Assembly (NCBI RefSeq): GCF_000308275.2 | Contig: NZ_HG529490.1 | Coordinates: 399,695 to 463,694 of the forward strand | From: Levyella massiliensis | GTDB lineage: Bacteria > Bacillota > Clostridia > Tissierellales > Peptoniphilaceae | Length of the DNA stretch: 64,000 bases | Direction of reading: 5' to 3' | In this document: one piece after another, positions 2,309 through 63,078 of the stretch | Layout: the number at the start of each line of letters is the position of its first letter | Position numbering within the stretch: the first letter of the stretch is position 1 | Translations under genes and position numbers: made by a program | The notes under the pieces: model-generated | Told to the model about the DNA's origin: nothing | Databases searched by the model: none | Seen by the model: the letters and a program-made list of their open reading frames with translations, nothing else

Positions 2309-4491
2309 GCTTGTACGTCGAAGTATTGCTATCGACCAATACGCGAAAAACGGATCGCCCCTTCACGTACGCTGTGCCGCGTGCACTGGAGGAAGGAGCC
2401 GTACGCGGTGCCCTTTGTTCCGTCCCTTTTGGCAAGGGCAATCGTCCTCGACATGCGATGGTGCTTCGGGTGTTGGAGCAGGAAAAACCGGATTTTCCGA
2501 CAAAAGAGATTTTGTCGTGGATTGCTGCGCCTTCCCCGGTATCGGCAGAATCCTTGGCATTAGCCGAATACATGGTGGACCATGATCTTTCCGATTATAC
2601 GGCAGCCATTCAAACGGTTTTACCTCCGGGAAAACCGGGTGCCTATCGCCCGAAGATGGAAACATTCTATGTACTGACGGAAGAGGGCAAAGAGGTAAAA
2701 CCTCGCTCCGGCGCTTTGCGTCAAAAAAAGGTTCTGCAAGCTCTCCGAGAAGGGGAACGGTCCGGAAAAGCCCTGCAGCAGGAGACCGGTGCTGACCGTG
2801 CGACTCTGTCCCGCTTGGTTGAACTGGGCTGGATAGACGAACGCGAAAAACGCATCGCGCGGCGCGATGTACCGCTCTCTGCGGAATATGCTTCCCAGAC
2901 GCTGACAAAGGCGCAACAGGAAGTCTTTGATCGCATTACAGCCGAAACGGGCGCCTATGTACTCTGCGGCGTCACCGGATCCGGCAAGACCGAAATTTAT
3001 TTGCAATTGGTGGAGCGCGCATTGCGTGAACAGAAGCAGGCGATTGTGCTCGTGCCTGAAATTTCCTTGACCCCGCAGACCATTGCTCGCTTTGAAGGCA
3101 GATTCGGTCGTCAGGTGGCCATTTTGCATTCCCGTCTGTCGCAGGCGGAGCGTTATGAAGAGTGGGAGAAAATCGTCCGTGGCGACGTTTCCATCGCCAT
3201 CGGAGCGCGTAGCGCCATCTTTGCCCCCTTTCCGCATCTGGGCATGATCATCATTGATGAAGAGCATGAATCGAGCTACGTGAGCGAAAAGAATCCGAAG
3301 TATCATACGGATCGCATTGCTGCATTTCGTGCGCACTATCATCATTGCTCCCTGGTATTAGGCTCAGCGACGCCCTCTATGGAAACACTATATCGCGCCG
3401 AAAAGGGAGAATTGACTCGGCTGGATTTACGGCAACGCATCCATAATTTGCCCATGCCGAGAGCCCATATTATAGATATGCGCGAGGAATTAAAACATAA
3501 CAATCGTTCCATGTTTTCACGCGCGCTTTATGAAGCCGTGCACGCGGCGTTGCAACGTAAAGAACAGATCATTTTATTTCTGAATAAACGCGGGCATACG
3601 TCTTTTGTATTCTGCCGTGCTTGCGGGTATGTGTATCGCTGTGATGCCTGCGATGTGGCCATGACCTATCACAAACATCGCGACAAACTCATTTGCCATT
3701 ATTGCGGCAGAGAAAAAGCATATGCCAGACAATGTCCGCAGTGCGGAAGTAAAGCCATTCGGGAATTCGGCGCGGGAACCGAACAATTGGAAGAAGAAGT
3801 GCGTCGTCTGTTTCCACAGGCCCGTGTGCGTCGGGCCGATGCCGATACGATGCAGCGAAAAGGGGCTTATGAAGCGGTCTATCAGGGGATGCTGGAAGGA
3901 AACATTGATATTCTGGTCGGTACGCAAATGATCGCCAAGGGCTTTGATTTTCCGCGTGTGACCGTGGTGGGCATTTTAAGTGCGGATGTGAATCTCAACT
4001 TGCCGGATCTGCGTGCCGCCGAGCGTACATTTCAGCTGATCACCCAAGTGGCGGGTCGTGCCGGTCGTGCGGATCGTCCGGGCGAGGTGTTTATCCAAAC
4101 CTATACGCCGGAACATTATGCCCTGCAGGCTGCGGCAACCTATGACGTAGACGCCTTCTATCAGAAAGAGATATCGTTTCGGCAAAGCAACGGCTACCCG
4201 CCGGCTTGCCACGCTTTACACATTCAGCTGAGCAGCGTATATCGGGATGAGGCGTTAAAAAAAGGACATGCCATCCGTCGGTATTTGGATATGCACTTTT
4301 CAGATGTGGCTTGCGATGGGCCGACTCCAAGCGTTATTGAACGCATGAATCGACGTTATCGCTTTTCCTTGCAACTGTGGCATGCCTCTCGCGCACGCTT
4401 GGAGGCGGTAGGGCATGCGATTCTTTCTTCTTTCCCGACGGAAGAGAGACTATGGATTACTGTGACGTTGGATCCGTTAACGACGTATTGA
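2305..4491 (+). CDS. priA: Primosomal replication restart helicase PriA
   Basis: A 728-residue superfamily 2 helicase that recognises stalled forks and reloads the replisome. The N-terminal DNA-binding part (about 1-200) is followed by Walker A GVTGSGKTE near residue 224, the DEEH box near 317 and helicase motifs to about 600. An insertion at about 436-482 holds paired CxxC motifs (CRACG, CDACD, CHYCG, CPQCG) that bind two zinc ions. Length agrees with PriA (730-800). It is translationally coupled to coaBC by ATGA. A 58-bp gap follows before def. Confidence 0.96.
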   Translation: MSLYVEVLLSTNTRKTDRPFTYAVPRALEEGAVRGALCSVPFGKGNRPRHAMVLRVLEQEKPDFPTKEILSWIAAPSPVSAESLALAEYMVDHDLSDYTAAIQTVLPPGKPGAYRPKMETFYVLTEEGKEVKPRSGALRQKKVLQALREGERSGKALQQETGADRATLSRLVELGWIDEREKRIARRDVPLSAEYASQTLTKAQQEVFDRITAETGAYVLCGVTGSGKTEIYLQLVERALREQKQAIVLVPEISLTPQTIARFEGRFGRQVAILHSRLSQAERYEEWEKIVRGDVSIAIGARSAIFAPFPHLGMIIIDEEHESSYVSEKNPKYHTDRIAAFRAHYHHCSLVLGSATPSMETLYRAEKGELTRLDLRQRIHNLPMPRAHIIDMREELKHNNRSMFSRALYEAVHAALQRKEQIILFLNKRGHTSFVFCRACGYVYRCDACDVAMTYHKHRDKLICHYCGREKAYARQCPQCGSKAIREFGAGTEQLEEEVRRLFPQARVRRADADTMQRKGAYEAVYQGMLEGNIDILVGTQMIAKGFDFPRVTVVGILSADVNLNLPDLRAAERTFQLITQVAGRAGRADRPGEVFIQTYTPEHYALQAAATYDVDAFYQKEISFRQSNGYPPACHALHIQLSSVYRDEALKKGHAIRRYLDMHFSDVACDGPTPSVIERMNRRYRFSLQLWHASRARLEAVGHAILSSFPTEERLWITVTLDPLTTY

Positions 4492-53224: not shown

Positions 53225-53248
53225 CGCTATCGAACAGATACGCCTTCT
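53225..53248 (+). repeat. Left target-site duplication (24 bp) of the ABC cassette
   Basis: A 24-bp sequence containing GAACAGATACGCCTTCT (from 53232) that recurs at 55498-55521 with one mismatch (C/A at the seventh base). It directly abuts the left terminal inverted repeat. Confidence 0.85.
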
Positions 53249-53276
53249 TGTATATTTGTAAATGATGTGAGACCAA
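53249..53276 (+). repeat. Left terminal inverted repeat
   Basis: 28 bp beginning TGTATATTTG and ending GATGTGAGACCAA. It pairs with 55470-55497 at 22 of 28 positions, and the inner 13 bases are identical. Confidence 0.82.
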
Positions 53277-53307
53277 AAACAGGAGAGAGAATTTCCTGTA
53301 TGCTACT

Positions 53308-53339
53308 CTATTGATGGCGGGTTAACCCGCCATCAATAG
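53308..53339. repeat. Perfect 32-bp palindrome over the transposase stop codon
   Basis: Each 16-base arm (CTATTGATGGCGGGTT and its complement) is perfect. The transposase TAA (53324-53322) is at the centre. On the plus strand it is followed by AGGGCGCGTTTTT, a possible terminator for transcription entering the element. Confidence 0.85.
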
Positions 53340-53693
53340 GGCGCGTTTTTCCATGGGCGTTAACCACCCCAAGGTTTGCATAGGCAGTCGATTCGATTTA
53401 TATAAATAGCGCTTCATTTGTACCAGCAAATCCTCGTAGCTGTAGAAAGACAAGCGCGAATAGAAGCGTTCGTTGTCATTACGATGACTTCGTTCTACTT
53501 TACCATTGTGTATCGGCGTCCTTGGGCGAATAAGCTGGTGCGTAATCCCTTGTTTTTGGCAAAACAGGTCAAATGGATGCGTTCGGCGTGTTTTCTGGAA
53601 GTGAGTAAATTCAAAGCCATTATCCGTCTGTATGATTTTTGGTTGATAGCCAAAATGTTTGATGACCATTTTGATAAATTCCACAGAGGACAT
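53322..53693 (-). pseudogene. 3' fragment of DDE (rve-type) IS transposase
   Basis: 123 residues of an integrase-core transposase. The second catalytic Asp is in IIQTDNGFEF and the Glu in NGKVERSHRNDNERFY, and the fragment ends PMEKRALLMAG. The first catalytic Asp and the whole N-terminal DNA-binding part are missing: an in-frame TGA stands four codons upstream of the first Met shown, and homology seems to end there. The pattern RPRTP.HNGKVERSHR is seen in IS481/IS1202-like enzymes. It cannot be active. It lies downstream of the ABC gene on the same strand. Confidence 0.85.
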
Positions 53694-53761
53694 GGTTTTG
53701 TCTCAAGGCGGCGAAGCACTTTTTTTCTTAATATATGCCGATTATCGGCCAACCGTCCGTC

Positions 53762-55375
53762 TTATTTTTGCATAAGGATCTGTTTATCTTCTATGCGGAT
53801 GATGTGTTGATAATTCTCGTCTTTTTCCTCGGTACGATGGGAAACGACGATAACGGTCACATTCTTTAGAGAAAAGATGCATCGTTCAATCTCTTTCAGT
53901 GAGCGATTATCCAGATTAGAGGTGTACTCATCCAAGAGGATAAATGGCGTTTTTCGCAATAAGGCCCGTGCCAGAGCTAAGCGTTGCTTTTCACCGCCCG
54001 ATAGGTTTCTACCGTTTTCGAAGAGAACGGTTTGCAATCCGTCTTTTAATCCGAGCACATAATCCAGCAGCCCGACTTGGGCTAAGGCCTGTTCGACTTC
54101 TTCTATACGGAACGTTTCAAACAACGTTACATTGTTAAAAATCGTATCGTTAAAGAGGAAGGGAGTCTGTTCGATGAGACATATGTTTTTCGCTATATTT
54201 TCACGGCTGATTTGTCGCTGATCTATATTGTTATACAGGATTTTTCCTGTATATTTTTCCTCTAAACCGGAGAGCAAATTTAGCAAAGTCGTTTTTCCTG
54301 CGCCGTTTTTTCCGACGATAAGGTATTTTTGATTGCGATCAAATTGGTAAGAGACCGCTTTTAGTATGCTCTTCTTCTCGTAGGCAAAGGAAACATCGAC
54401 CAGTTGAATCGTGTGTAAGGCTATTAGCGGATCATGAGTAGGTTCTTTTGTTATTTCCTGGTTTAGGATTTTTTCTATGCGAAGAAGTGCAGTTTGGGCT
54501 GCCTTTATCTTTGCTAAGTCATCAACTAAATACAAAGAAGGACCACTAATATAGGAAACGACATTCGTAATCGCCACGATAATGGATAAGCGTATGCTTC
54601 CTATCATCAACAAATAGCCCCCGACGAGAAAAATGCCTAAATACGCAATTTTATTGAAAACATAAGAAAAGGAATTGACGAAAGAGTTTAAAAACTCCTT
54701 TTCCCTCCATTTTGTTTCCACCTCGCATACGGTTTTTCCATAATTTCTTGTCAACATGCTTTCAATATGAAATATTTTAGCCGTCATATGGGAAGAGAGG
54801 TAGTCCTTTAGGGTTGCAATATGCTTCTCTTGTCCCTCGGTATATTCTGCTCCGCTGCGTTCTAATTTTTTGCCAAAAGCAATAGGAATAAATGCCTGCA
54901 AAAAAGAAGTGAGCAGAACAAACAAACCTATCTGCCAACTGTAGTAAAACATGATAAGAGTCGCAAAAAACATTCGCATAAAATCTTCCATCATATCCAT
55001 AATCGTATAAAGCACTTCGCGCAGAATTTCCACATCATTTTCGATAACGGAAAGATAGGTGGATGATTTATCATGAAAAACATCTTTGTCTTGCCACATC
55101 ATTTTTTGAAAAAGACGCTGTTTCAAGCTGGAGATACTCTTTTGAATTAACGTAAAATGTATTTTTGCATCAAAAACATTAATGAGAAAATCGACGAGAA
55201 TGTAAACGCCAAAATACATAAAATATTTTGGCAGTTGCGTTAATGATCCGCTCATCGCAAAATCAATGATACTGGCAATAATCGTCATGACCGCAACAGA
55301 GCTCAGGGCACGCAAAGGCATTAAAACCAGAAAAAGAAAAAATTCTTTTTTTTCGTTGATGATAAAGTTCAACAT
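53762..55375 (-). CDS. ABC exporter, fused membrane and ATPase domains (cassette passenger)
   Basis: A 537-residue half-transporter that should act as a dimer in the membrane. Residues about 1-300 hold the six hydrophobic segments of a type IV (ABCB-like) exporter. Residues about 325-537 are the ATPase: Walker A GKNGAGKTT, Q-loop near LIEQTPFLF, signature NLSGGEKQR, Walker B ILLDEYTSNLD and H-loop VVSHR. Base composition is AT-rich compared with neighbours, suggesting transfer. No peptide substrate gene, protease domain or partner transporter is adjacent, so the substrate (peptide, lipid or drug) is unknown. The ribosome binding site is AAGGGAAATAAAT. Confidence 0.85.
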   Translation of the reverse strand: MLNFIINEKKEFFLFLVLMPLRALSSVAVMTIIASIIDFAMSGSLTQLPKYFMYFGVYILVDFLINVFDAKIHFTLIQKSISSLKQRLFQKMMWQDKDVFHDKSSTYLSVIENDVEILREVLYTIMDMMEDFMRMFFATLIMFYYSWQIGLFVLLTSFLQAFIPIAFGKKLERSGAEYTEGQEKHIATLKDYLSSHMTAKIFHIESMLTRNYGKTVCEVETKWREKEFLNSFVNSFSYVFNKIAYLGIFLVGGYLLMIGSIRLSIIVAITNVVSYISGPSLYLVDDLAKIKAAQTALLRIEKILNQEITKEPTHDPLIALHTIQLVDVSFAYEKKSILKAVSYQFDRNQKYLIVGKNGAGKTTLLNLLSGLEEKYTGKILYNNIDQRQISRENIAKNICLIEQTPFLFNDTIFNNVTLFETFRIEEVEQALAQVGLLDYVLGLKDGLQTVLFENGRNLSGGEKQRLALARALLRKTPFILLDEYTSNLDNRSLKEIERCIFSLKNVTVIVVSHRTEEKDENYQHIIRIEDKQILMQK

Positions 55376-55436
55376 ATTTATTTCCCTTCATACAGTGCTA
55401 TGTAGAGAATCCTTTCATTGTTTGGTGGACACTTTC

Positions 55437-55442
55437 ATTATA
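55437..55442 (-). promoter_or_regulatory. Possible promoter of the cassette ABC exporter
   Basis: TATAAT on the minus strand (55442-55437), 61 bases upstream of the ABC start codon and just inside the right TIR. The -35 region is A-rich without a match. Confidence 0.4.
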
Positions 55443-55469
55443 CAGGACTTCTCTCTATGTTTTTTCTTC

Positions 55470-55497
55470 TTGGTCTCACATCAATTGTATCTCTACA
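55470..55497 (-). repeat. Right terminal inverted repeat
   Basis: Reading inward on the minus strand: TGTAGAGATACAATT followed by GATGTGAGACCAA. Partner of 53249-53276. Confidence 0.82.
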
Positions 55498-55521
55498 CGC
55501 TATAGAACAGATACGCCTTCT
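55498..55521 (+). repeat. Right target-site duplication (24 bp)
   Basis: Matches 53225-53248 at 23 of 24 positions. It ends 4 bases before the -35 hexamer of the rimP promoter. Confidence 0.85.
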
Positions 55522-62031: not shown

Positions 62032-62997
62032 ATGCAAATTTTGGATTACGACCGCGCCGATTGGGTGCAAGAGAAGCCGGTGGTTATCGCACTCGGAAAT
62101 TTTGACGGTGTACATTTGGGGCATCAACAACTGTTGCAAAAAGCGAATGCGGTTAGCAAGGAGCATGGCTGGGAATCGGCAGTGTTACTTTTTAAGAATC
62201 ATACGACGAATGTTCTAGCACCTTCGGCAAAACGGGTACTGACCAGTGTCGATGATAAAAAAGCGCGTCTCTCGCGTGCCGGCATTGATACCATATTTCT
62301 TTGCACCTTCAATGCAACATTCGCGGCACAATCCAAAGAGGTCTTTATTCAGAAAATTCTTCATCGCGATCTCCATGTTCGTCATATCGTTGTGGGATAC
62401 GATTATCGCTTTGGAAAAGGCGCTGAGGGATCGGTGAAGGATCTTTTAAAAGCCGAGAAGGATGGCCTTTTCTCGCTCAGTTTAATTGAGGATGTCCGTT
62501 TTGAAGGAAAACGCATCAGTTCGACACGCATTCGTGAAGCGATCGCAAAAGGAGAAGTGGAGCGTGCCGATGCAATGCTTGGCGCGCCCTACACCATATC
62601 CGGCACCGTGATTCATGGGGCACATCGCGGTCACGATCTGGGCTACGCAACGGCCAACCTGGGCATTTCCTTTCCCTATGTGCTGCCGCATGAAGGCGTC
62701 TATCTGACCTATGCGCGGTTAAACAATTGGCAGGGCTTCGGCATGACATCGGTGGGTACGAATCCAACTTTCGATGATGGTTCAAAAATGACTATCGAAA
62801 CCAATCTTTTTGATTTTCACGAAACCATATACGAGCAGCCCATGCAGCTCTCTTTCTTGCGCTTTGAACGGTTTAATGTGCGTTATCACGACAAGGAAGC
62901 CCTTATCCGACAGCTCAAGGAAGATGATCGCTTATTGCGTTCGTGGGCGGAAGAGTGGAAACAGATGCGCTCTACATTTATCAATGAAGTGAGATAA
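62032..62997 (+). CDS. ribF: Bifunctional riboflavin kinase/FAD synthetase
   Basis: A 321-residue enzyme making FMN and FAD. The N-terminal adenylyltransferase has ALGNFDGVHLGHQQLL near residue 20, GYDYRFGKGAEGS near 122 and ISSTRIREAI near 160. The C-terminal flavokinase has GYATANLG near 204 and VGTNPTFDD near 241. The start is ATG 62032 with TGAGGA before it; much longer frames upstream lie in truB. The last codons resemble the inner end of the insertion element's terminal repeat (see findings). Confidence 0.94.
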   Translation: MQILDYDRADWVQEKPVVIALGNFDGVHLGHQQLLQKANAVSKEHGWESAVLLFKNHTTNVLAPSAKRVLTSVDDKKARLSRAGIDTIFLCTFNATFAAQSKEVFIQKILHRDLHVRHIVVGYDYRFGKGAEGSVKDLLKAEKDGLFSLSLIEDVRFEGKRISSTRIREAIAKGEVERADAMLGAPYTISGTVIHGAHRGHDLGYATANLGISFPYVLPHEGVYLTYARLNNWQGFGMTSVGTNPTFDDGSKMTIETNLFDFHETIYEQPMQLSFLRFERFNVRYHDKEALIRQLKEDDRLLRSWAEEWKQMRSTFINEVR

Positions 62998-63078
62998 AAG
63001 CGAGAGAAAGAATCTTTCGTATGCCGTCTTCTTGGTGGCGGGTTAATCCGCCATCAAGAGGGCGTTTTTTTATGGCGT
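62985..63078. mobile_element. Decayed end of the same insertion element family, after ribF
   Basis: About 94 bases align with the left end of the 53.2-kb cassette in the same order: ATGA.GTGAGA near the TIR inner end, GAGAGA..GAAT, GTATGC, then GGTGGCGGGTTAA.CCGCCATCAA.AGGGCG and a T tract. The part after the hairpin matches the last codons of the transposase gene in decayed form. Similarity stops near 63078. I see no matching right end in the window. Confidence 0.6.
63031..63071 (+). terminator. Probable ribF operon terminator (derived from the element hairpin)
   Basis: An 11-bp stem (63031-63041 with 63048-63058, one G-T pair) with a 6-base loop. T7 follows after a 6-base gap (63065-63071). 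The gap makes it less than ideal. Confidence 0.55.

Follow-up and report, generated by a model that had tools for sequence, protein, structure and literature searches.

The window, i.e. the whole 64-kb stretch of DNA analyzed, corresponds to C1:399695-463694 of a host genome of 1.71 Mb in four contigs, whose closest named relatives belong to Murdochiella. Between folE and rimP it carries an ABC exporter gene and the remains of a transposase gene, enclosed by inverted repeats that are abutted directly by two copies of a 24-bp sequence (Table 1). Read from the B end to the A end, the unit consists of a 94-bp stub of an Insertion Sequence (IS), a captured segment of about 1.7 kb that holds the exporter, and a 437-bp stub with a hairpin. 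An earlier sequence-only reading had described the locus as a transposase-deficient cassette with intact, imperfect 28-bp inverted repeats, a flanking duplication with one mismatch and a complete exporter as passenger. Each of these features was recovered: the two ends are identical to each other at 22 of 28 positions, within the 64 kb no other two non-overlapping 24-mers agree at 23 or more positions (apart from the one-base shift of this pair), and the exporter has both Pfam domains with their motifs present.

Table 1. Position of the parts of the exporter cassette (window coordinates) and of the related bsh-cls cassette (contig and locus coordinates)
Feature	Position	Strand	Remark
Target duplication, left copy (24 bp)	53225..53248		23/24 identical to right copy
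A end, 28-bp inverted repeat, TGTA start	53249..53276	+	27/28 vs A end of complete copy
A-side element stub, 437 bp, with transposase C-terminal third	53249..53685	-	91% identity to complete element
Perfect 16-bp hairpin, terminator-like, at transposase gene end	53308..53339		
Transposase C-terminal fragment, 123-aa frame	53322..53693	-	second D and E present, first D absent
Captured segment, about 1.7 kb	53692..55391	-	extent of homology to tyrS-linked exporter locus of G001/G004
Intact ABC exporter, 537 aa, passenger	53762..55375	-	ABC_membrane and ABC_tran
B-side element stub, 94 bp	55404..55497	-	91% identity to 5' non-coding part of complete element
B end, 28-bp inverted repeat	55470..55497	-	28/28 vs B end of complete copy
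Target duplication, right copy (24 bp)	55498..55521		23/24 identical to left copy
bsh-cls cassette, host, 4071 bp	C2:127224-131294 = L013:7225-11295		outer-end 26-bp duplication, 25/26

The element from which the stubs derive is present as a complete copy of 1122 bp at C2:127224-128345 of the host genome, with an intact 316-aa DDE transposase (C2:127322-128269). Complete copies, for which the sequence-only reading had recommended a search, thus exist in the same genome as well as in relatives. The stubs correspond to positions 1-96 (B) and 686-1122 (A) of this copy, in the same orientation. They stop at 55404 and 53685, and the homology of the captured DNA extends up to 55391 (with G004) and down to 53692 (with G001), so that both junctions can be placed within about a dozen bases. 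Foreign DNA in its middle rules out that the unit is one ordinary IS copy between folE and rimP. The transposase remnant had been described as a C-terminal third without the first catalytic Asp. The 123-aa frame indeed covers residues 196-316 of the complete protein and consequently holds D217 and E260 but not D153; its start codon and the following codon, however, lie outside the stretch that aligns with the element, on the cargo side of the junction. With a passenger gene between intact IS ends, a target duplication, no functional transposase of its own and an intact cognate element in the genome, the unit has the composition of a mobile insertion cassette.

Transposases of this group are 300-335 aa long. 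D153, D217 and E260 are invariant in all 57 full-length frames (out of 70) on which residues were counted. A structure model built from 38 of the 56 stop-free frames (host copy and 55 others) predicts an RNase H-like core between an N-terminal part and a tail that are both helical (mean pLDDT 85.6, pTM 0.57). Among the 50 solved-structure matches listed, with query-normalised TM scores of 0.30-0.47, IstA chains of IS5376 rank best, followed by TnsB and retroviral integrases, and a PDB profile search with the transposase returned two IstA sequences only. IS5376 belongs to the IS21 family. Other traces of the element were seen in the host. A third copy (L015:11222-12182, contig C3), whose transposase frame is interrupted by a stop and for which no B end was detected, adjoins genes assigned by Pfam to an ArsR-family regulator and a heavy-metal P-type ATPase. 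Solo end-like matches are located at C1:87839 and C1:345063, both upstream of long frames resembling surface proteins, at C2:46002-46110, and at 62973-63071 of the window (75% identity to the element).

The exporter is under purifying selection (dN/dS 0.135 against the G004 gene and 0.165 against that of G001); no curated NCBIfam equivalog reached its cut-off among the 25 models listed of 165. At E <= 1e-70 the gene is found in only three of 130 genomes of the family, namely the host, G001 and G004. In the latter two it adjoins a membrane-protein gene and tyrS (identified by Pfam in G004 and in the host genome), and no element end was detected at this locus beyond a 12-bp match at chance level in G001. 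In the BLAST comparison the host tyrS locus (L225) contains no exporter and has kept tyrS and a diverged membrane-protein gene. At the DNA level the host exporter is 92% identical to that of G004 and 86% to that of G001; since folE and tyrS reach only 77-78% with the congeners, the high identity to G004 points to a transfer between species. The gene is a mosaic: over the first 1 kb it resembles G004 at 93-99%, and further on G001 at 91-95%, so that its history includes homologous recombination. An arrival from the G004/G001 branch after the species split fits these comparisons.

The folE-rimP region was compared in the congeners. It is devoid of the exporter in G004, G002 and G001, with another gene occupying the gap in the last two; folE was not found in G003. 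One of the two findings named beforehand as refuting the cassette, an exporter conserved at this position in relatives lacking the repeats, was looked for and not seen in these congeners. A single copy of the 24-bp target could not be aligned there, the folE-rimP intergenic DNA being too diverged. The absence of the exporter from this site in three congeners, together with its tyrS-linked location in G001 and G004, rules out that it is native between folE and rimP. Absent from folE-rimP and located beside tyrS in congeners, the exporter appears from these comparisons to be a captured gene. In the same gap of G001 (L219:2629-2644) a 16-bp exact remnant of a B end is present in addition to the extra gene, possibly marking a preferred site.

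A sister cassette is present on contig C2 of the host, between a putative rpmE-like frame and a cell-wall-binding gene (CW_binding_2). It is composed of the complete element, a cardiolipin synthase gene (cls; TIGR04265, 345.1 bits for a cut-off of 290), a bile-salt hydrolase gene (bsh; NF038245, 499.8 bits for a cut-off of 350) and a second A end of 93 bp, identical to the other A end at 93 of 93 positions, which agrees with two copies of a single element. G109 has the same cargo in a 3030-bp cassette with A and B ends, close to a MobA/MobL relaxase gene; of the element only 81 bp are left there, and the 26-bp duplication (25/26) differs from that of the host. Host and G109 are identical at 3017 of 3030 aligned bases. 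G017 and G128 have in common a truncated form of the cassette (99.7% over 2.7 kb), which in L220 lies beside MobA/MobL and T4SS-DNA-transfer frames. Because its B-side flank is that of G109, these three genomes represent one site, not three. Near-identical bsh-cls cargo is thus present in four genomes of four genera. The rpmE-like frame directly adjoins the cell-wall-binding gene in G001 and G002, where the cassette is absent; this empty site was seen from the rpmE side, the prmC query being uninformative alone. In a class-wide sample of 391 genomes the near-identical pair was found in the host and G109 only (G017 and G128 are not among the matches listed), and six others have homologues at 69-77%. 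The plasmid collection contained no near copy of the bsh cassette. With two sites, each bordered by its own duplication, the sister cassette is, as judged from sequence comparison, the best proof of mobility. In G004, near the rpmE site that holds the cassette in the host, a 26-bp match to the A end (96%) was noted (L261:3412-3437).

The distribution of the element group and of its target duplications was then surveyed. The end pattern of the element occurs in 24 of 130 family genomes, with no genome matched by the reversed-pattern control; a slightly different pattern occurs in 25 of 249 genomes of the order, where the reversed control matched in three. By protein, judged on the best 80 of 125 transposase relatives, the element occurs in Bacillota, among them Streptococcus, Gemella, Parvimonas, Kallipyga and many MAGs. 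These 80 provided 69 loci for the survey of duplications, after omission of 11 with strongly truncated matches (L107, L110, L111, L113, L114, L116-L121). A bracketing pair of ends was found at 58 of the 69 loci, and both flanks were available for 49 of these. A duplication of 24-26 bp is present in 28 of the 49 testable copies, which are not all independent, as some loci come from the same species or from similar MAGs. It measures 26 bp in 15 copies, 25 bp in 12 and 24 bp in one; 24 duplications are perfect, three have one mismatch and one has two. When left and right flanks of different copies were cross-paired, none of 2352 combinations exceeded the score cut. The 21 remaining copies have neither a long duplication by score nor a perfect one of at least 3 bp, so no short class is hidden among them; they may be recombined or old. 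Two of them (L046 and L103) have weak duplications of 21/25. The plasmid collection yielded no transposase relative at 1e-60 or 1e-20, and the phage collection two unannotated matches (39 and 47%). More distant relatives from viral contigs (41-55% identity) had no long duplication in any of 16 loci tested out of 20 (L264, L266, L281 and L283 being left out).

Several other loci resemble cassettes or derivatives of the element. A 6678-bp pair of A and B ends in the G003 MAG (L155:2840-9517), enclosing FMN-oxidoreductase, ADC-domain and short-chain dehydrogenase genes, and a 2600-bp unit in Kallipyga (G084, L158:2032-4631) were not counted as proven cassettes, for lack of a duplication. The latter contains an AbiEi/AbiEii-type pair between remnants of the same element, possibly a third cargo. 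In Streptococcus suis AP_SS21 (L103:2249-7118) the element is interrupted by other DNA, with an extra 18-bp copy of the A end beyond a 365-aa frame without Pfam match; the 21/25 duplication lies at the outermost ends. None of 19888 random 25-mer pairs of this locus reaches 21 matches, and its status as a cassette with a duplication is only suggestive. Two short derivatives of 426 and 469 bp (L163:2262-2687 and L166:2519-2987) retain both ends, the former with a perfect 25-bp duplication.

Taken as a whole, the locus is very probably a transposase-deficient passenger cassette of an IS481-like group with 24-26 bp duplications, captured at tyrS and inserted at folE-rimP. This reading draws on the ends and their duplication, on the complete cognate element, on the exporter without ends elsewhere, on its absence from folE-rimP of congeners and on the sister cassette at two sites. 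How the exporter was captured, its transposition in trans and the vehicle that carried it into this species are inferred. In a donor related to Murdochiella massiliensis/vaginalis, two directly repeated copies of the element would have come to lie on either side of the tyrS-linked exporter. One copy would have contributed its outer B end and the other its outer A end as the ends of the unit, and internal deletions would have trimmed both copies to stubs. An intact transposase acting in trans, such as that encoded on C2, would then have brought the A and B ends together and moved the cassette into the site between folE and rimP, giving rise to the 24-bp duplication. The intact copy is a plausible source of mobilization, given that the cassette ends are identical to its own at 27/28 and 28/28 positions. 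In each cassette one outer end is of B type and the other of A type, as in a single element, and the bsh cassette has a full element copy on one side and a stub on the other; two direct repeats with cooperating outer ends, followed by deletion, would be the simplest reading. Against the passenger-cassette reading as a whole, the duplication already has one mismatch, no single 24-bp target could be aligned in congeners, 21 of the 49 testable relatives have no duplication by score, and the exporter gene is a mosaic.

The main rival for the exporter unit is an internal replacement: a complete element already resided between folE and rimP, exporter DNA replaced its middle by illegitimate or homologous recombination, and the cassette never moved. 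The two stubs do fit one element in position and orientation, and the exporter gene is a recombination mosaic. The 130 family genomes also gave no further copy of the exporter cassette, which may thus have transposed just once, or never as a whole. However, the sister cassette has been mobile as a whole, with a separate duplication at each of two sites; replacement requires an extra event inside the element, whereas capture on the donor side also accounts for DNA closest to that of a congener. We regard internal replacement as unlikely.

A second alternative, a genuine IS1202-family element with an exporter passenger, follows the family assignment of the sequence-only reading, which held in part. 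The duplication of 24-26 bp falls in the long class (>15 bp, as opposed to 3-5 bp) and the ends are of TGT..ACA type. The residue at E+7 is Q in 45 of 57 transposases, a reported mark of IS1202 (PMC10132070), N in 11 and K in one. Duplications of 27 and 28 bp are given for IS1202 and ISSeq2 (PMC10132070), and of 24-29 bp for one class of the family (PMC10045372). The host copy, however, is among those with N. According to the family table, IS1202 transposases have 394-507 aa, with a beta-barrel after the catalytic domain (PMC10132070), compared to 300-335 aa in the present group and, in the structure model, helices only after the RNase H-like part. For each of three transposases tested, IS481 was the best NCBIfam model over nearly the whole length (186, 192.5 and 186 bits), below its cut-off of 224; the ISNCY_2 model gave 25.9 and 33.6 bits for two relatives and was unlisted for the host protein. 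IS1202 membership is quite improbable. In established terms the exporter unit is a mobile insertion cassette, and the group behind it, with its long duplications, is IS481-like and does not properly belong to IS1202; the group joins an IS481-like protein to an IS1202-like duplication. Finally, a chance arrangement of unrelated repeats around an ordinary exporter gene, for which nothing speaks beyond the imperfection of the ends, is refuted by the unique 24-mer pair in 64 kb, by the match of both ends to the complete element and by the location of the exporter elsewhere in relatives, and its probability is negligible.

The same element group has moved a bile-salt enzyme gene as well and thus seems to act as a shuttle for genes in these anaerobes. 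A wider proposal, to which we give somewhat less than even chances, is that of an unnamed, widespread Bacillota IS group, intermediate between IS481 and IS1202 and with fixed duplications of about 25 bp, in which an end would repeatedly be duplicated or left behind, with capture of single accessory operons. It would deliver them across genera, partly on conjugative elements (exporter, bile-salt hydrolase, perhaps AbiE-type defence cargo), and act as a general small gene-capture platform of host-associated anaerobes. Two cargoes, one of them at two sites, illustrate how accessory genes can pass singly from one genus to another on short IS elements, with no large transposon involved, and bile-salt hydrolase is a function of wide interest for the gut microbiome. 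The constant duplication of 24-26 bp and the compact transposase of about 316 aa provide a small protein for asking what makes some IS481/IS1202 transpososomes place their target cuts at a distance of more than two helical turns.

Among the open-access papers listed, none describes this IS group or these cassettes as judged by title or beginning of the abstract; ISfinder may list members. Mobile insertion cassettes and transporter ISs are outlined as passenger genes between IS ends, with or without a transposase, activated by a cognate transposase in trans (PMC3129680). The units described here share this organization and are distinguished by their cargo (an ABC exporter, or bile-salt hydrolase with cardiolipin synthase) and by the 24-26 bp duplications of the parent element; the host bsh-cls unit, which has its own transposase, would be termed a transporter IS in that nomenclature (PMC3129680). 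A single DDE transposase of about 300 aa and TG..CA ends are shared with the IS481 family, from which the group departs by model scores under the cut-off and by duplications of 24-26 bp in all 28 scored copies, compared to 2-15 bp, mostly 6, as given for that family (PMC10045372). The group resembles the IS1202 family as described in its long duplications, its TGT..ACA ends and the Q at E+7 of most transposases inspected, and differs in the shorter transposase, modelled without beta-barrel, and the weak or absent ISNCY match. Another related system is IS481EU of parabasalids, with an IS481-like transposase, TGT..ACA ends and duplications of about 25 bp in some copies (PMC10045372). In contrast to the present group, IS481EU is eukaryotic and, in the account given there, its duplications fall into classes of 4, 15 and 25 bp even within one family (PMC10045372).
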